A stretch of 35,989 bases of DNA, from the IMG/VR virus record IMGVR_UViG_3300017772_000044, positions 1 through 35,989 of that record; one strand, given 5' to 3'. Position numbers and translations under genes: made by a program. The stretch is from a virus. Under the pieces are notes generated by a model. That model saw only the letters and a program-made list of their open reading frames with translations. It was not told the DNA's origin and did no database searches. Shown here one piece after another: positions 1-35,597 of the stretch (position 1 is its first letter; every line of letters starts with the position of its first letter).

Positions 1-123
1 ATAGCTGAGTTAGATTGTATAAGTTTTATATCTTCTCTTAGTCTAGTCCAGTTACAATAGTTATCATCTATGTGTGGATCTCCCATCCATAGTATACCTA
101 TAGGCCCATCAATATTTACTTTA
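1..123. repeat. 123-bp terminal direct repeat, left copy
   Basis: Bases 1-123 are identical to 35867-35989. The repeat lies inside a coding sequence, and joining the two copies restores one continuous reading frame (metallophosphoesterase). This is what an assembler leaves when it linearises a circular or circularly permuted genome. A true packaged terminal repeat is possible but less likely to fall inside a gene. Confidence 0.97.
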
Positions 124-392
124 ATATCAATCCAATCTTGAGCGTCTTTTGCTTTAGCTCTTCTTTCGTATCTATCTGTTACAGTCTGTACTAATTCTTC
201 TATGTCCATCTCTTCATTAGGAAGATCTGGTATTTCAAAATCAGGTTGTAAGTTTTTAGCCTTATGTAATCTTTGCATATAGGTTGCGTATTTTAATCCT
301 AAAGATTCAGCAGCTTCGTATCTGTTGTTGAAACTTTCATCAGCAGTAAGAACTTCTAACAATTCTTCTTCTGGTACAGGTGGCATAGGCAT
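1..392 (-). CDS. HTH-metallophosphoesterase, N-terminal part (continues at 35989)
   Basis: This is the first 130 codons of a 345-residue protein whose remainder is encoded at 35866-35221 after the circular join. Its ATG (392-390) overlaps the stop of the upstream 70-residue gene as TAATG, so the two are probably translationally coupled. Residues about 10-45 resemble a helix-turn-helix (NRYEAAESLGLKYATYMQRL), followed by a charged linker. The phosphoesterase core begins at about residue 100 with the metal-binding D-P-H (residues 105-107), whose first strand is encoded right at the repeat. The HTH-plus-phosphoesterase arrangement suggests a DNA-directed nuclease or phosphatase. The substrate is unknown. 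Confidence 0.85.
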   Translation of the reverse strand, partial: MPMPPVPEEELLEVLTADESFNNRYEAAESLGLKYATYMQRLHKAKNLQPDFEIPDLPNEEMDIEELVQTVTDRYERRAKAKDAQDWIDIKVNIDGPIGILWMGDPHIDDNYCNWTRLREDIKLIQSNSA

Positions 393-2111: not shown

Positions 2112-5100
2112 TTATGACTTGATTAATAAACTTGCACTTGATAAAGCAGTGCCACCTACTACTGAGATAGTGTCTGCTGTAGTTTGTAAAGCACCTGTTG
2201 AGTTATTTACAAAATATTGTGTGCCTGTTGTTAAAGATGATTGATTGCTGTCAACTTGTGAAACAATTTTAACTTTAACATCTTCATTATCAGTTACAGT
2301 CTGTTGAGCAAAACCAATAAAATTGCCTGCATTTATATTTGTAGCAAAATTATTAAATGCAGGAGCATAAGTTAAGCCTATCACTTGAGGTGAATTGTTT
2401 GTGTAACCAACTATTGCATTATGACTAGTAACTCCAGTGTTTGCAATATACATAGAATACCAATCAACACTAGAATTAACTGTAACAGGTGTTTCCCAAG
2501 TAAGAGTACCTGAAGAATTATTTCCAACAACAATTTTTAAATCGTTATTTGAATTATTTTGATAACTGATAATATATTGTTTTGTCAAAGGAATATAAGC
2601 TGTAAATTGATTACCATGAATACTTGTTCCTGTATCAGCTACAACAGTTGAACCTGCGGTTATTGTCGTTCCAGAATAAGATAATACAGCAGTTTTTAAA
2701 TCAATATTAGAACCATTAAACCATACAGCTATTGTTCCTTTTCCATCTGCTTCACCTTCTACAACATTACATTCACCACTACCTGAATTTGTACTATCTA
2801 AAACTACAGGAGTTCCAAAAGTAGGAGCAGAGCTGGTAGAAGTAAAAGCAATAACTGTTGGATAATTATTATTGTTGTAATCTATATAAGCAATAGTTCC
2901 TCTTTCATTTGTATTATCCCAAACTACATTACCTCTTATAATTTTGCTTGAGTAACTACCAAAGACTGCTGTGGCATAAGATTGATTTAGAGATGTTCCT
3001 GCACTAGCTTGATAATATCTTGAAACAACAGAATAGGGTTTTCCTGTAATTGCATAAACAGCATCATTTACTGAATCATAAGCCATTGAATGAAAATCAG
3101 TGTAAGTACTTTGAGTACCAAAACTGCTATCATTACCATAACTTAATGTTGTACCTGAATAAGTTGTCATCATAAAAGTTGTTCTACTTAAAGAGTTTCT
3201 TTGACACATTAAACCAAAACCACCTGCACCACTATTGTAAGTAGGATAATAAACTACGCCTATTGAATCACTGTTCATTGATACTGAAGCTAAAACAAGA
3301 GGTGTTCCCCATGTTATAACACCTGTTGTACTATCTGCTGTGCCTAAAACCATACAATTATAAGCGCTTGAATTTTGATAACCAAAACAAATCGTTCCAT
3401 TACCATCGCTTGTTATATCTCCATTACCTGAACCACTCATATATGGAGAAGGTAGATTAGATGTAGATGATATTAATTCAGATTGAGCCCCACCTGTAGA
3501 AACTACTTTAGAAAAATCACCATCTGTTCTAAGGATTACAGCATCACCTTTAGTAATAGAACCATTAGCCATACCAACTAATTCTGTTGGTGACTCAGAT
3601 AATTCTAGGTCTGTTCCGCTTCTTGCCACTCCTACAAAATTTGACTGTGAACCATTTACTACTGTTGATGATGTTGTGTTATAATATAAAACAAAGCCTG
3701 TTGCTTTTGTATTAGAGAGCGGTGTTGCGCTAACAACAATGCCACTTTTTGTATCAGGATTGTAAAGCGAAGCATTGTGCAATACTCTTTCTGCTGTTTG
3801 ATTACCTAATGTTGTAGCTGATGCTGTAAAAGATGGTGTTGTGCCACTTATTGTAACAAAACCAATCTCGCCATAATAACCAGAAGTGTTTTTCATATAA
3901 ACTAAAACAGTTTTATTTTGTTCAGTATCATAATAAGGAGCAAGCCATCTCATATATTGACTGCTAATTTGTGTTGTTGTACCTGAAGTAAAAGTGTCAC
4001 CTGAAGCTGTTAAAACATTTGCTCTTAACACATTGCCTGCTTGGGCTTTAAATAATATCCATTTATCATTATCAGGGTCATAAGATAATGCTTTACTACC
4101 ATCTTGTTCTGTTCCTTCGTCTGTAATAGCATAATGCGTAGATGGTACTGTTATATTTGCACCTGAAATTGTAGCTTGATAAATTCTACCTTCGTCACCG
4201 TATAAATGGTCTGTCATTATTACTTGTTTGTTTGTATCAGGGTCGTATTCGTTCCATATAACTTTATTATTGCCTGTATAACCCATAGTAATCGTTGCTG
4301 AATTTCCTGTAGTTAATGTAGTACCACTATTTGTTATTAAATATGCAATAATTGAAGTTGAAGAATTTTCTGCAAAAGTATAAACAAATTTATTAGCATT
4401 AGGATTGTAAGCAATAGTACCGCCTGTAAAATGAGAAGTACCTGTATTTGGTTGTATTGCTGAACCTAAAGTAATACTATTTGTGCCTGAATAAGAACCT
4501 GCTTTTATATAATTTGTATCGTTTGAATCAAGAAAATAAGATGCAACAAAAATACCATTACCATAAGCTAATTTTTGTCCTGAATGATTAGTAGGAGAAG
4601 AACTTGCTGAATTTACCACAACAGGTGTTCCCCAAGTAATTGCATTATTTGATTCTGAACCTATTGCTATTGTTGGATAATGATTTGAGTTTGCATAAAG
4701 TACACCAATTTTGTCATTAGTTGTATCATAAGCAACACTTATGTCTCTTTCATAATTATTAACATCAGCAATTTCATAACCACTAGAAGATGAAATATCT
4801 GAATTAGTAGTTACAGTTGTCGTAGTACGTTCTTTTATGAGACCTGCATCAGTAACATACATATCCTTACCTGCGGTCATACCTGTTTGATTTTTGTTTA
4901 AAGAACCTGGGCGTGTTACCTTTACATCCTGTCCATTGCTTTTAGTTTCAGCTGCAATACCAAAGTAATTGTCTGATGTAAGGTTACTAACAGGAGTAGT
5001 TTGTTGTGAACTTTCTAAATAAACAATGTTATCAATTTTTCCTGTTTTTAATCCTGAACCAAAGACAGCTTGTGTTTTACTAACATTGGTAGTAACACCT

Positions 5101-27429: not shown

Positions 27430-27499
27430 AATCTAAAAGTCAACAGTCTAGGTGCGGGCAGTCACGAAGTGACAACACGGCTGATTGACTTATTAGATT
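27430..27499. repeat. 19-bp imperfect inverted repeat with inner hairpin
   Basis: Bases 27430-27448 pair with 27479-27499 through three helices (7, 7 and 5 bp) separated by single-A bulges. Inside, GTCAC-GAA-GTGAC forms another hairpin (27461-27473). One T-G pair is a wobble on the plus strand. Each outer arm holds TTGACT reading away from the centre, one of which is the -35 of the promoter at 27485-27514. The element could be a DNA operator/cruciform or an RNA structure. Confidence 0.65.
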
Positions 27500-28018: not shown

Positions 28019-28092
28019 TACCGTGCACCTCGACCAATATTCTCATGAATAAATACCGTCTATATATACAGGGGGATTTTTATAAGTAATTT

Positions 28093-28122
28093 TTGACATG
28101 CGCTTAGCCTTGATTTTATTAT
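28093..28122 (+). promoter_or_regulatory. Main early plus-strand promoter
   Basis: A perfect -35 TTGACA (28093-28098), an 18-base spacer and TATTAT (28117-28122, one mismatch to consensus). Transcription from near 28129 would give a leader of about 260 nt before the first early gene at 28388. It is the best sigma70-type candidate for expression of the early operon by host RNA polymerase. Confidence 0.75.
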
Positions 28123-28148
28123 TATGTGCCACAGAATTTTTGTCCTCC

Positions 28149-28369
28149 TTGCCCGATGGGCAATATTATGCCTACGGAAATGTAGCGATTTGCTCAGTTG
28201 TATCAGGCGACAAGCACATTACATAATTCTAATGCCAAGCATTTGGCATTATAATTATTATTGTTCTGCCATTGTTCGACTTAATGCAACACCAAGTCCT
28301 TTGGTGTTCCCCTATGGTGCATTAAGTCGAATCACCTGATGCAATCCACAAATCCACAATTCCGTGGAT
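28149..28369 (+). promoter_or_regulatory. Structured 5' leader of the early operon
   Basis: Several stems follow one another. TTGCCC-GAT-GGGCAA (28149-28163). TAATT and TAATGCCAA pairing with TTGGCATTA and AATTA around a GCAT loop (28224-28257). A perfect 14-bp arm pair (28275-28288 with 28318-28331) enclosing ACACCAA/TTGGTGT. ATCCAC-AATTCC-GTGGAT (28352-28369) directly before the AAAGGAGG ribosome-binding site. The last could open or close the start of the first early gene. As DNA, the same stretch contains the DnaA-box-like cluster. Confidence 0.6.
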
Positions 28370-28371
28370 AA
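28342..28371. promoter_or_regulatory. Cluster of three DnaA-box-like 9-mers (origin candidate)
   Basis: Against TTATCCACA: CAATCCACA (28342-28350, 7 of 9), AAATCCACA (28350-28358, 7 of 9) and, on the opposite strand, TTATCCACG (28371-28363, 8 of 9). Three in 30 bases right before the first early gene is notable because the phage encodes a DnaA domain IV-like protein. Either that protein or host DnaA could bind. The adjacent AT-rich tract (28240-28262) could serve as an unwinding element. Confidence 0.45.
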
Positions 28372-28387
28372 TATAAAGGAGGCCAAA

Positions 28388-29029
28388 ATGGCACATAATA
28401 ATAAAATCGTACAGACTATCCTATCAAAAATTACTTATAAAAATCACATAGATAGAGAAGGAATTATTAATGGAGAATATAGAAATGATGATACGGGAGA
28501 GGTTACACCTCGCACGTATTACACAGGATTCTTCATGGTGAAGGAGATGATAGAAGCACATCGTAAGATGGTGCGTACAGCATCTAAAAGATATACATCT
28601 TTATCTAAAGATTTCGAAAAGGAATCTGCACCTTACCGCAAAGGCGGTAAGCTTGAGGTCGGAGTTCTTCTACCAAAGAAAGCAACAAGATACCAACATG
28701 ATTTGATTACTGAGTCAAACAAACTCAAGTATCTTTCCGACCTCCAAAAAGAGCTCGATGAAGCCATCGAGTTCTTTGGTGGATTAAGAGAGGATGCACA
28801 CTACGATGTTATTGCATCTGACCTTGACGAAAGACTAACAGGTAAAAGGAAAGTTAAGGTTATAACACCTCAAGTACCTACTGAAAAGTTTAGTAAGTCA
28901 GATGCAAAAGAACTTGATGAAGCTTTGGATTTAGCTAAAGAGTTCTATGCTGAAGAGGTTAATGTTAATCCGATTAACAATGACCAGACAGAAGTCAGTA
29001 CTGAAGCAAATCAAGAAGAGGTTTACTAA
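28388..29029 (+). CDS. First early protein, unknown function, 213 aa
   Basis: The start is fixed by AAAGGAGG 5 bases upstream; a GTG at 28364 that would add eight residues lies inside the leader hairpin and is rejected. The protein is highly charged and helical: a basic first half (AHRKMVRTASKRY), a coiled-coil-like section (about residues 110-135, KLKYLSDLQKELDEAIEFF) and an acidic C-terminus (FYAEEVNVN, EANQEEVY). I recognise no family. Being first after the main early promoter and followed by a strong terminator, it is probably made in large amounts. A host-takeover or DNA-binding role is possible. Confidence 0.85.
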   Translation: MAHNNKIVQTILSKITYKNHIDREGIINGEYRNDDTGEVTPRTYYTGFFMVKEMIEAHRKMVRTASKRYTSLSKDFEKESAPYRKGGKLEVGVLLPKKATRYQHDLITESNKLKYLSDLQKELDEAIEFFGGLREDAHYDVIASDLDERLTGKRKVKVITPQVPTEKFSKSDAKELDEALDLAKEFYAEEVNVNPINNDQTEVSTEANQEEVY

Positions 29030-29038
29030 GACCTCTTC
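29015..29038 (+). repeat. Inverted repeat GAAGAGGT / ACCTCTTC
   Basis: A perfect 8-bp stem with an 8-base loop that contains the stop codon of the first early gene. It abuts the terminator at 29039, so tandem hairpins close this transcript; the first may protect the mRNA 3' end or interfere with translation termination. Confidence 0.6.
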
Positions 29039-29071
29039 AGCCTCAGCTCCTTGCGGAGCTGGGGCTTTTTT
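29039..29071 (+). terminator. Strong rho-independent terminator after the first early gene
   Basis: AGCCTCAGCTCC pairs with GGAGCTGGGGCT (12 bp, one T-G pair that is a wobble only in plus-strand RNA) around TTGC, followed by six T. It separates the first early gene from the rest of the plus-strand genes, making that gene a monocistronic, probably abundant message. Confidence 0.92.
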
Positions 29072-29169
29072 GTTGTTCATCTGGTGAAGAACAGGAGCAC
29101 GTTGCTATGCCAACGGCGACCCTCTCCCCTGGGTAAAAGCCAGCTTTTGTAATCACTAGGTGAACAACA
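29071..29169 (+). ncRNA. Candidate structured RNA element closed by a 17-bp helix
   Basis: TGTTGTTCATCTGGTGA (29071-29087) pairs with TCACTAGGTGAACAACA (29153-29169) over 17 bp. Two of these are U-G/G-U wobbles on the plus strand and would be A-C clashes on the minus strand. Inside are CGTTG-CTATGC-CAACG, CAGGAG against CTCCCCTG with a bulge, and AAAAG-CCAG-CTTTT. No open reading frame fits. It lies between a terminator and the next gene, so it is either an independent small RNA or a cis-regulator of the 29207 operon. I do not recognise a known class; it is not a tRNA. Confidence 0.6.
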
Positions 29170-29206
29170 GAAAAAAATTATTAAATATTAACAACAGGAG
29201 AACACA

Positions 29207-29440
29207 ATGATTGATAGAAAATATCATACATATATAAGCTTTAATATAACAAAACATGATACTTCAACAGTGAGTACATCAACAGCAATAACTAATGGGT
29301 TAGACCATTTTAATTGGAAGGTTCAAAATGATATTGTAGATATTCTTGAAACTGTAGGTTACGAAGTAGAAGATATGCATGCTAAAACATTTATAACAGA
29401 AGGTAAAAAATATTATGTAAAAGGAGATGACAATGACTAG
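29207..29440 (+). CDS. Hypothetical early protein, 77 aa
   Basis: It is preceded by AGGAGAACACA, the ribosome-binding block that recurs in this operon. It is a mixed alpha/beta polar protein (YISFNITKHDTSTVSTSTAI, then WKVQNDIVDILETVGYEVED) with no motif I recognise. It overlaps the next gene by 8 bases. It is the first gene downstream of the structured RNA element and may be controlled by it. Confidence 0.75.
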   Translation: MIDRKYHTYISFNITKHDTSTVSTSTAITNGLDHFNWKVQNDIVDILETVGYEVEDMHAKTFITEGKKYYVKGDDND

Positions 29441-29699
29441 ACAATACCCAATCTGGAATGACGTGACTAACTGTTTGTATCAAAGCAGCAAGTCATACGG
29501 TAACAGAGAAGATGGTCGTGTTACTATTAAGGTAGGCACATCATCTTATAACAGTCATACATTATGTGTTCACAGAATTACACATAAAAAAAATGATGAC
29601 GGAACTCAAACCTTTAGGTTCTCTATTAATAATAAAGTATTAGTAGAGGCCCAACTTAATAAAGGTGAGAACGACCTTGAGTTTACCAAGCAAGTTTAA
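29433..29699 (+). CDS. Hypothetical early protein, 88 aa
   Basis: GGAG lies 6 bases before the ATG at 29433; an in-frame ATG two codons upstream (29427) is too close to that site. A beta-rich protein (VTIKVGTSSYNSHTLCVHRI, TQTFRFSINNKVLVEAQL), possibly a small beta-sandwich. No family is recognised. It ends about 60 bases before the next gene, where a promoter-like sequence lies. Confidence 0.75.
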   Translation: MTRQYPIWNDVTNCLYQSSKSYGNREDGRVTIKVGTSSYNSHTLCVHRITHKKNDDGTQTFRFSINNKVLVEAQLNKGENDLEFTKQV

Positions 29700-30582: not shown

Positions 30583-30770
30583 TGCCAGCAATATATTTAA
30601 ACGAAGATGACTGTCAAAGTCTAACAAGTATACTTTATTTATCTAGCATGCAAGATGATGAAGTAAAAGATTTTTACTACAAGATTATTAATAAGATAAA
30701 TAATGCTAGTAGAAAAAATAGCAGATGCGAAATAACTATTGATGCATCTGAAATAGTAGAGGAGTTTTAA
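30582..30770 (+). CDS. Hypothetical protein, 62 aa
   Basis: A short acidic helical protein (NEDDCQSLTSILYLSSMQDD, then FYYKIINKINNASRKN). AAGGAG precedes its start, which overlaps the previous stop (TAATG). It ends with the same TAATG overlap into a 28-codon membrane peptide. Function unknown. Confidence 0.65.
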   Translation: MPAIYLNEDDCQSLTSILYLSSMQDDEVKDFYYKIINKINNASRKNSRCEITIDASEIVEEF

Positions 30771-30856
30771 TGGATAGCGGTGCAAAAGCTTTGATAGTTA
30801 CAGTACTTATACTTGTATTATTTATTACAGTACAAGTACAATTAACTATAAACTGA
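30770..30856 (+). CDS. Membrane micropeptide, 28 aa
   Basis: The ATG shares its first base with the preceding stop and lies 5 bases after GAGGAG. The product is a single hydrophobic helix (ALIVTVLILVLFITVQVQL) with short polar ends. Coding is supported by the coupled start and the clean membrane span; it is below usual gene-finder limits. Such peptides often modulate host membrane complexes; the target is unknown. Confidence 0.55.
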   Translation: MDSGAKALIVTVLILVLFITVQVQLTIN

Positions 30857-34002: not shown

Positions 34003-34413
34003 ATGGATAAACAACAAGCGTGGGAAAAGATTAAAAGTCTTTGCCCAGACATAGAACCAAACGATAAACTTGCGTGGCAGTTAAAACAAAACAAGCAATG
34101 GATATTAAGTAACCAAGCTTGCCAAAGAATTGCTGCTTACAATAAAATTATCGTAACATATAGTGAGCCTAAAGAAATACTAGGCAATATATATCTTAAA
34201 GCAACTGCAAAGAATACTGTAACAGGATTACAAATTGAATCCTTTGGTGAGACTAGCAGTAAGAATACACACAACGCATACCCTTTAGCTATGGCAGAGA
34301 AAAGAGCGCATGATAGAGTCGTTCTTAAATGTGTTGATGTATACTCTACATTCTATAGTGACGTAGAGTCAGACGATTTTAAAAACAACAATGATAACAG
34401 GAGCATAAAATGA
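34003..34413 (+). CDS. Single-strand annealing protein candidate, 136 aa
   Basis: The conserved-looking core runs from WILSNQACQRIAAYNKI through GLQIESFGETSSKNTHNAYP to AMAEKRAHDRVVLKCV. The last segment (K/N-A-Y-P-x-A-M-A-E-K-R-A-x-D-R-V-V-L-K) is a pattern I associate with phage proteins next to recombination exonucleases, but I cannot name a characterised family. Placed between an exonuclease and SSB, an annealing or recombination-mediator role is the best inference. It overlaps the SSB start by 4 bases. Confidence 0.6.
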   Translation: MDKQQAWEKIKSLCPDIEPNDKLAWQLKQNKQWILSNQACQRIAAYNKIIVTYSEPKEILGNIYLKATAKNTVTGLQIESFGETSSKNTHNAYPLAMAEKRAHDRVVLKCVDVYSTFYSDVESDDFKNNNDNRSIK

Positions 34414-34829
34414 GTTACTCAGGTACACTTGCAACAACAGAACTAATAGGAAATCTAGGGAATGATCCAGAGATTAAAGAAACAAACAACGGTAAGAAGT
34501 ATGCCGTACTTTCTATAGCAACAAAGATTAAGACTGGTGCTAATGATGAAGAAACATTATGGCATAGAGTAGTAGTCTGGAATGAAAGCACAATAGATAA
34601 ATATATAATTCCATATATAAAGAAAGGTGCTAAGCTATACATTAAAGGAGATCTTAAGTACTATAAGATGGACACAGATGATGGTAAAACAATTAAGATG
34701 TATAGTGTTGAGCTGTCATTTGGTGGAGAGATTATGATTCTTGACAAAAAATCTGACGCAAACACAGACACGTCTGCATCAGCACCAGCTATAGAATCAA
34801 AGAAACATGATAGTGATATACCGTTCTAA
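34410..34829 (+). CDS. ssb: Single-stranded DNA-binding protein, 139 aa
   Basis: An OB-fold SSB: LIGNLGNDPEIKETNNGKKY at the start, LWHRVVVWNES in the middle, IKKGAKLYIKGDLKYYKM later, a disordered S/T/A/D linker, and the C-terminal tip DSDIPF. That tip closely resembles the bacterial SSB tail (D-D-I-P-F) that docks host replication and repair proteins, so this SSB may recruit the host replisome. Two hairpins follow the gene, the second a terminator. Confidence 0.95.
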   Translation: MSYSGTLATTELIGNLGNDPEIKETNNGKKYAVLSIATKIKTGANDEETLWHRVVVWNESTIDKYIIPYIKKGAKLYIKGDLKYYKMDTDDGKTIKMYSVELSFGGEIMILDKKSDANTDTSASAPAIESKKHDSDIPF

Positions 34830-34933: not shown

Positions 34934-34976
34934 AGTGCGTACCAAAAAAAAATATAAATGTTATAAAGGAAATCTT

Positions 34977-35597
34977 ATGTTCAAAAACAAATCACTTAAC
35001 AAAATTATCAATAAAGTATTAGAAGATAACAATACTTCATGGGATGAAATCAAAAGCTCAAGACGTACCGAAGGTATAGTCAACGCTAGATTTATATCCT
35101 ATTACTTATCAAGAAAATTTACTAACCTATCTTACACACAGATAGGACACAAGTTTAACAAAGATCATTCAACTATAATGCATGGTTGTAAGAAAGCAGA
35201 AGCGTTAGATAAAAATATTCTTACTTCTTATGTGGATCTTTACCATACTTATCTTGAAGATATAAAAGAAAGTCGTGACCTTCTTGAGGATTCTCAAAGA
35301 AATTCTGTTTTGACTCTGATGAAGAGTATGGATCAATCACTTGCAGTATTGATTGACCATGTTTCTGCTGAGAAAACCCTTTCTCAACAGCATACTGATC
35401 GTAATCTTTATATCCTTTTAACCGAACTAACGAAGCAACTTTCCCATTTCGTTGTTCTATTTTCTGGATTGCCCAGTTATGACGATGACCAGCAATATAC
35501 AGATCAGCATCACTATTCCAAAGAGAAGCTTTCATCTGAGCATGAAGAGGATTATACTGAGAGTGACCTGGAAAATCGTGACGAGAATCTACACTAA
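34977..35597 (+). CDS. DnaA domain IV-like DNA-binding protein, 206 aa
   Basis: AAAGGA lies 6 bases before this ATG; a GTG at 34935 sits right on the terminator T-tract and is rejected. Residues about 28-78 match DnaA domain IV, which reads DnaA boxes: R30, ARFISYYLSRKFTNLSYTQI (37-56), G57, then the signature D63-H-S-T-I-M-H-G-C-K-K (63-73; bacterial D-H-[TS]-T-[VI]-x-H-A-x-[RK]-K). No AAA+ ATPase is present, so it can bind but not open DNA. The last about 125 residues run antisense to the metallophosphoesterase and may be nonconserved filler. It probably competes with, recruits or mimics host DnaA. Confidence 0.8.
   Translation: MFKNKSLNKIINKVLEDNNTSWDEIKSSRRTEGIVNARFISYYLSRKFTNLSYTQIGHKFNKDHSTIMHGCKKAEALDKNILTSYVDLYHTYLEDIKESRDLLEDSQRNSVLTLMKSMDQSLAVLIDHVSAEKTLSQQHTDRNLYILLTELTKQLSHFVVLFSGLPSYDDDQQYTDQHHYSKEKLSSEHEEDYTESDLENRDENLH

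Follow-up and report, generated by a model that had tools for sequence, protein, structure and literature searches.

Background

RNase III signals of the T7 type are long, nearly perfect duplexes of about two turns that are located between the genes of early polycistronic messages, and T7 carries a series of them. The put RNA of HK022 is an element of about 70 nt located downstream of an early promoter; it consists of two adjacent stem-loops, and its action depends on the zinc-binding domain of RNA polymerase (PMC9378689). Structured RNAs are also carried by marine phages, for instance manA, wcaG and PhotoRC-II, which have Rfam accessions and are associated with genes of metabolism or photosynthesis (PMC2864571).

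We analysed the viral record IMGVR_UViG_3300017772_000044 over its whole length of 35,989 nt (the window) and named a hairpin on its plus strand, at positions 29071-29169, RNA-A. The record is podovirus-like and its large terminase shares 66% identity with that of the Pelagibacter phage EXVC031P Hodr. RNA-A is a real, very stable structured RNA of about 100 nt in front of an early operon. Like the signals in the T7 early mRNA, it is a long hairpin with irregularities, placed between early genes that the host polymerase presumably transcribes, and with 17-22 bp plus the 8 bp of a second helix (P2) it reaches the duplex length of a T7-type signal. It differs from the T7 series in that there is only one RNA-A hairpin and that this hairpin, a candidate for cleavage, follows a strong terminator. 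RNA-A resembles put in being a structured RNA that belongs to an early phage transcript with terminators nearby, but RNA-A is one closed stem of about 100 nt with a branched interior, lies beyond the terminator and lacks the arrangement of two stem-loops (PMC9378689). In contrast to manA, wcaG and PhotoRC-II, RNA-A and the corresponding leaders of related phages reach no Rfam cut-off. Among the literature matches listed, titles and beginnings of abstracts contained no description of these leaders; the single match for pelagiphages and noncoding RNA in the library searched concerns marine actinobacteria, judging from its title and the start of its abstract. The main text of a pelagiphage transcriptome study from 2025 does not contain the terms "noncoding", "non-coding", "small RNA", "terminator" or "RNase" (PMC12753301).

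Organization of the early region

In the window, the early region is encoded on the plus strand and the late genes on the minus strand. Gene 1 is followed by T1, a strong intrinsic terminator with a stem of 12 pairs at 29039-29066, eight of them G-C in the terminator scan; compared to L089, T1 shows one compensatory change from C-G to U-A, as read by eye. RNA-A is located between this terminator and the operon starting at 29207 (Table 1), exactly where the preliminary description had placed it, and we refer to this interval as the slot. The product of the first operon gene matches phrog_8208, a family of unknown function, with an E-value of 0.003. No tRNA or tmRNA was found in the window.

A consensus scan of the window identified sigma-70-like plus-strand sites upstream of gene 1 at 27485 and 28093 (11 of 12 matches each), and none between 28372 and 29569. 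Since the scanned region contains 24 such sites compared to 18.1 in shuffled sequences, single promoter sites are weak evidence either way. The same type of scan, which a phage-specific promoter would escape, detected no site between T1 and the operon in eight of ten leaders, the exceptions being L115 and L008 with a single weak site apiece. A search of eight records, some of them fragments, detected no T7-type RNA polymerase domain; it was run with no positive control. Gene 1, RNA-A and the operon are on one strand with no sigma-70-like site between them, and are presumed to share a transcript. Because eight of the ten leaders lack a sigma-70-like promoter in the slot, RNA-A probably arises when transcription reads through T1, as had been considered initially.

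Two other genes of the window deserve mention in their own right. At 30770-30856 there is an ORF of 28 codons with a proper AGGAG (MDSGAKALIVTVLILVLFITVQVQLTIN), which by eye probably encodes a small membrane protein, and at 34935-35597 a protein with a DnaA C-terminal helix-turn-helix domain is encoded adjoining the SSB gene (34410-34829).

Table 1 Positions of the features discussed, in the window unless a related locus (L number) is given
Feature	Position	Strand	Remarks
Leader arm	28037-28150	+	complementary to the gene-1 start; same presumed transcript, outside RNA-A
Gene-1 start region	28376-28480	+	pairs with the leader arm; ribosome site and first codons
Gene 1	28388-29029	+	213 aa, upstream of T1; no Pfam family at E 0.01
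T1	29039-29071	+	intrinsic terminator of gene 1 with U-tract; terminator scan
RNA-A	29071-29169	+	
P1, 5' arm	29066-29087	+	17 bp at 29071-29087; 22 bp with the U-tract
P1, 3' arm	29153-29174	+	
P2, 5' arm	29091-29098	+	8 bp, pairs with 29143-29150; holds AGGAG 29093-29097
P2, 3' arm	29143-29150	+	
P3 hairpin	29101-29114	+	GUUG-CUAUGC-CAAC; invariant in three records
P4/P5 hairpin	29115-29141	+	C-rich loop UCUCCCCU; UUUCCCCA in L001 and L089
Possible 9-codon ORF	29107-29136	+	MPTATLSPG; AGGAG 29093-29097, gap 9
AGGAG and first gene of the downstream operon	29196-29440	+	gene at 29207, 77 aa, unknown
RNA-B	L001: 3391-3466; L089: 7739-7814; L006: 3209-3283 (-)		
Hairpin C	L006: 3141-3205 (-); L117: 2449-2513; L118: 2450-2513; L009: 1671-1732 (-)		
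Module E	L001: about 3310-3370; L112: about 107-165		possibly a pseudoknot
ArdC-type antirestriction protein	L006: 1986-2978 (-); L008: 1867-2838 (-); L009: 700-1794 (-)		behind the leaders

Structure of RNA-A

The multi-branched fold of about 100 nt that had been noticed at this position was confirmed. On the plus strand RNA-A folds with -43.4 kcal/mol (z -5.46) and none of 200 shuffled sequences was as stable, while the minus strand reaches -34.8 kcal/mol (z -2.60) with four of 200 shuffles as stable. The closing helix P1 (UGUUGUUCAUCUGGUGA / UCACUAGGUGAACAACA) consists of the 17 bp initially described, including the wobble pairs U29080-G29160 and G29083-U29157, and it is even longer than stated: with G-U pairs allowed it extends to 22 bp (29066-29087/29153-29174) and thereby includes the U-tract of T1. 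This is the longest helix with a span of up to 110 nt on both strands of the window, the next one having 17 bp on the minus strand; in four shuffles of the whole window, where only the plus strand was considered, the longest helices had 18, 16, 14 and 14 bp. A chance fold is ruled out by the shuffle statistics and the helix length. In a single fold of the 331-nt context, all pairs of P1 have a probability of 1.0 after rounding, except for the last one with 0.86, and no structure competing with P1 appeared. In the same fold, the ribosome site of the 29207 gene is largely open and its ATG is mostly paired. A leader switch had also been considered initially; riboswitches combine a conserved ligand core with covarying stems and an alternative pairing, and RNA-A so far offers this one fold and two distinct sequences with no compensatory pair.

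The two wobble pairs had been regarded as a signature of the strand of action. They are indeed present, but the signal is weak, since the three records that possess RNA-A are invariant at these pairs, and two wobbles would be oriented alike in one of four cases by chance.

The preliminary description further held that there is no coding alternative, which is not quite right, since a weakly supported ORF of nine codons (ATG CCA ACG GCG ACC CTC TCC CCT GGG TAA) lies inside the hairpin. It is conceivable, albeit quite improbable, that MPTATLSPG is translated as a leader peptide and couples translation to folding. The AGGAG upstream of the ORF would fit such a function, and all three ORF differences to L001/L089 are synonymous, which has a chance of 0.03-0.06. 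However, the AGGAG is buried in P2 and its gap to the ATG is 9, compared to 5-7 at the 11 other early-strand sites. AGGAG-type sites are clearly enriched on the early strand (12, compared to a mean of 1.35 in 200 shuffles) and the other 11 precede ORFs of at least 28 codons, whereas three late-strand sites with gaps of 9-10 are followed by ORFs of only 4, 14 and 6 codons. Moreover, a degenerate scan of viral_contigs returned only L088 and L089.

Conservation of RNA-A

RNA-A is present in three records, the window, L001/L088 and L089, which represent two distinct sequences. All three agree throughout the 5' half and differ only in the 3' half; no pair has changes on both sides. When the sequences are aligned without gaps, one P1 pair is broken and four of the eight P2 pairs are non-standard in the second sequence, but when the RNA-A sequences of L001 and L089 are folded singly, a P2 of 7 bp is retained. 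As there are only two distinct sequences and no compensatory change, the wobble argument is weak and RNA-A has no support from covariation.

A model built from the three RNA-A sequences matched two of 50 records, both of them its own members; the model searches for RNA-A and for RNA-B (see below) covered 50 of 86 loci, those left out being mostly short contigs. A search with a 17-base core of RNA-A returned seven stretches. Those in L088 and L089 are real, while L084, L085, L086, L087 and L090 showed no such closing helix in their folds and were taken as chance matches. The exact 24-base tail of RNA-A had no match in viral_contigs, but these 24 bases are also absent from L001 and L089, and a 20-base pattern had no match in genome_contigs. 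With the region 28900-29300 as BLAST query against cultured phages, the best 20 of 26 records each cover at most 10% (best E-value 0.4). The gene-1 family search with four sequences yielded six loci, all from known records, and protein searches of cultured phages with the 30009 product of the window and with gene 1 of L118 yielded nothing. L004 has an identical TerL, but its lack of RNA-A is uninformative, since the contig ends within terS.

The assumption of a new structured RNA was partly borne out, as no family of Rfam 15 matches the window at the gathering cut-off and RNA-A keeps 94% identity in L089. Below the cut-off, RNA-A of L001 matches mir-3910 on both strands (27 bits compared to a cut-off of 95, E 0.0016), which we read as a match to a plain long hairpin, and Six3os1_3 alone overlaps RNA-A of the window (E 0.61). 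A weak match of the window to atoC lies on the terminator and was dismissed as the identity of RNA-A.

While RNA-A is 94% identical between the window and L089, the gene 1 proteins share 40% and the 29207 proteins 32% identity; for L001, identity to the window amounts to 94% in gene 1 and to 31% in the counterpart of 29207. RNA-A is therefore a conserved island at a mosaic junction. This raises the question of a role at the DNA level, as a short inverted-repeat insertion or as a recombination junction between mosaic gene cassettes, and the breaks of similarity near both ends of RNA-A, with RNA-A and T1 shared by L089, would agree with it. We regard this as very unlikely, given that the interior of RNA-A is conserved and that the plus strand folds more stably than the minus strand.

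Other structured RNAs in the slot of related phages

Loci of relatives were found via the terminase and the ArdC-type antirestriction gene. The ArdC-type alignment search yielded 15 viral loci, some of them from known records, and none in genome_contigs. The ArdC-type protein of L006 has ArdcN and MPTase-PolyVal domains, those of L008 and L009 were assigned by alignment, and the window possesses 29433-29696 at this position instead. Such a leader is present in 16 records, ten of which entered the scans for helix length and promoters; L005, L092, L095, L096, L119 and L122 are outside these ten and their hairpin-C stems were covered separately, whereas L110, L111 and L116 start inside or after the leader and were left out.

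All ten leaders contain an uninterrupted helix of 12-21 bp with G-U pairs allowed, and only 0-14 of 200 shuffles per leader reach the observed length. The ten are not independent, since RNA-A is common to the window, L001 and L089, and another element, hairpin C, to five of the leaders. The long helices belong to three unrelated stem families. That three unrelated stem families occupy the same place is our main argument for the assumption that a long hairpin in the slot is selected as RNA, and it points to a control or processing of the early messages at the RNA level. Homologous intergenic regions without the closing helix of RNA-A had been named as counter-evidence, and at the level of sequence such regions exist: the helix is absent from L005, L006, L008, L009, L112, L115, L117 and L118. 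But these same leaders carry another long helix, which was seen in the leader scan for seven of them and among the hairpin-C stems for L005.

The slot is filled with different combinations of modules, namely A in the window, A+B in L089, A+E+B in L001, B+C in L006, E+C in L112 and D+C in L118. RNA-B occurs in L001, L089, L005, L006, L092, L095 and L096 and has the conserved core AUCUGGGnGAACUUGA..UCAGACAGAACGCYUYGAGCUACCCAG. This core is kept between two lineages, while the closing stem and the inner hairpin change in a compensatory manner (5 of 20 pairs changed on both sides). The RNA-B model matched seven of 50 records, all own members; RNA-B is absent from the window and has no Rfam match at the cut-off. 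Module D is found in L118, L119 and L009/L120, where it is closed by GGUCGUA/UACGACC, and L117 and L122 retain a short stem-loop remnant of it. The stem AUCUGUU/AACAGAU of module E shows a swap from A-U to U-A at its end, and L008 and L115 have a stem of 15-16 bp with yet another sequence, in which two pairs are swapped between these two records (both read by eye).

The succession of differing modules in one slot suggests that they might be interchangeable functional RNA cassettes, which either bind RNA polymerase for antitermination, like put of HK022, or sense or block a host factor. In favor of this are the compensatory changes around the conserved RNA-B core and the position of the operon beyond a strong terminator. 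However, since the modules follow T1, they cannot help the polymerase to pass it, and no second plus-strand terminator is listed between RNA-A and 29207 in the terminator scan of the window. RNA-A is also a single closed stem and not a pair of adjacent stem-loops as in put. We rate such cassettes as unlikely.

Hairpin C is represented by six distinct sequences with a stem of 12-13 bp and a C-rich loop. In two of the 12 pairs of this stem, both sides are changed, a count that is reached by 231 of 500 shuffles and thus is no excess, but its covariation score and its number of changed cells are each reached by only seven of 500 shuffles and exceed slid controls. As drawn, the inner helix reaches a paired fraction of only 42%. 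As both elements are long stems with a C-rich loop, a common descent of RNA-A and hairpin C is tempting, but their similarity (reached by 44 of 1000 shuffles for L001 and 257 of 1000 for the window) is only suggestive. A switch in L006, in which the 5' strand of RNA-B would pair with the 5' arm of hairpin C, was rejected as this pairing is lost in L095 and L096 (by eye).

In the relatives, hairpin C is followed by 2-3 bases and then by U7-U9 directly before the ribosome site. This arrangement would suit an attenuator or second terminator of the operon, but for RNA-A itself this function is hardly probable at all: RNA-A is followed by GAAAAAAA and not by the U-tract that comes directly after the hairpin of an attenuator or intrinsic terminator, and the terminator scan does not list it.

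The C-rich loop leads to another possibility, i.e. that RNA-A is a stable small RNA trimmed from the readthrough transcript, which would use the UCUCCCC of its loop to bind GGAGA ribosome sites in mRNAs of the phage or its host. In the context fold the loop is unpaired with a probability of 0.95 to 0.99, its UCUCC is complementary to GGAGA at 29197-29201, and hairpin C possesses C-rich loops as well. On the other hand, the similarity to hairpin C is not significant for the window and marginal for L001, in L117 a part of the C-rich stretch sits in a stem, and RNA-A has no terminator of its own. Such a small RNA is decidedly unlikely. Pairing of the loop with the ribosome site is possible, but its conservation is too low to claim it.

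A long duplex at the start of gene 1

A second long structure was detected upstream of T1. In the window, the leader arm is 75% complementary to the gene-1 start over 118 columns, and the region 28037-28488 folds with a z-score of -12.6. An inverted copy of the gene-1 start is present in the own leader of 11 of 12 loci compared (L096, L112 and L115 were left out), several of which are close relatives: in the first set it was found in all five (window, L089, L006, L118, L119), and in the second set in six of seven (L001, L005, L092, L095, L117 and L122, but not L008). The complementarity amounts to 69-76% over 116-150 columns, and as one palindrome the duplex extends over 358 columns in L089 and 412 in L092. 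The gene-start arms of the five phages are mutually only 50-63% identical, yet each pairs with its own leader, and the five leaders fold with z-scores of -12 to -22 (40 shuffles each). Among 11 further gene starts in the early region of the window, none has a match of at least 60 columns, and the duplex has no Rfam match.

According to the predicted pairing, the duplex would hide the ribosome site of gene 1, and it is possibly more interesting than RNA-A itself. Given its location at the 5' end of gene 1, this gene would be flanked on either side by a possible RNase III substrate.

A possible function in the processing of early messages

We consider it most likely that RNA-A is a cis-acting hairpin of the readthrough transcript. 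More specifically, we tentatively propose that this long hairpin is processed by the host RNase III, which splits the gene-1 mRNA from the operon mRNA. From the hairpin itself, its position, the lack of a sigma-70-like match before the operon and the long helices of other sequence in the relatives, all of which were computed, we infer transcription, readthrough, cleavage by RNase III and an effect on the messages as follows. Host RNA polymerase would start upstream of gene 1 and partly pass T1, and the readthrough RNA would snap into a hairpin of 17-22 bp. Host RNase III might then cut or trim this hairpin, which would separate the gene-1 mRNA from the operon mRNA and give the latter a defined 5' end that is protected and located in front of the 29207 ribosome site.

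The stable fold and its placement after a strong terminator and directly before the operon support the function as a processing hairpin, and so do the compensatory changes in hairpin C (2 of 12 pairs) and between L008 and L115 (two swaps, by eye). Conversely, stems of 12-13 bp, as in hairpin C, are short for RNase III and count against processing. The interior of RNA-A is also more conserved in sequence than a plain double-stranded site needs, and the conserved cores of RNA-B look like specific binding sites.

In a wider sense, the early region of these pelagiphage-like viruses might be run by RNA throughout, with the duplex (28037-28480) locking the start of gene 1 and with a slot after T1 in which a long hairpin and small structured RNAs (A, B, D, E) are swapped as cassettes before the operon, which in the relatives encodes an ArdC-type antirestriction protein, each cassette being a functional RNA of an undescribed class. 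We regard this generalization as rather unlikely at present.

Conclusions

SAR11 phages probably rank with the most abundant marine viruses. If the leader RNAs function as proposed here, they would be a compact means of timing and splitting the early messages and would offer clean targets for RNA sequencing during infection.
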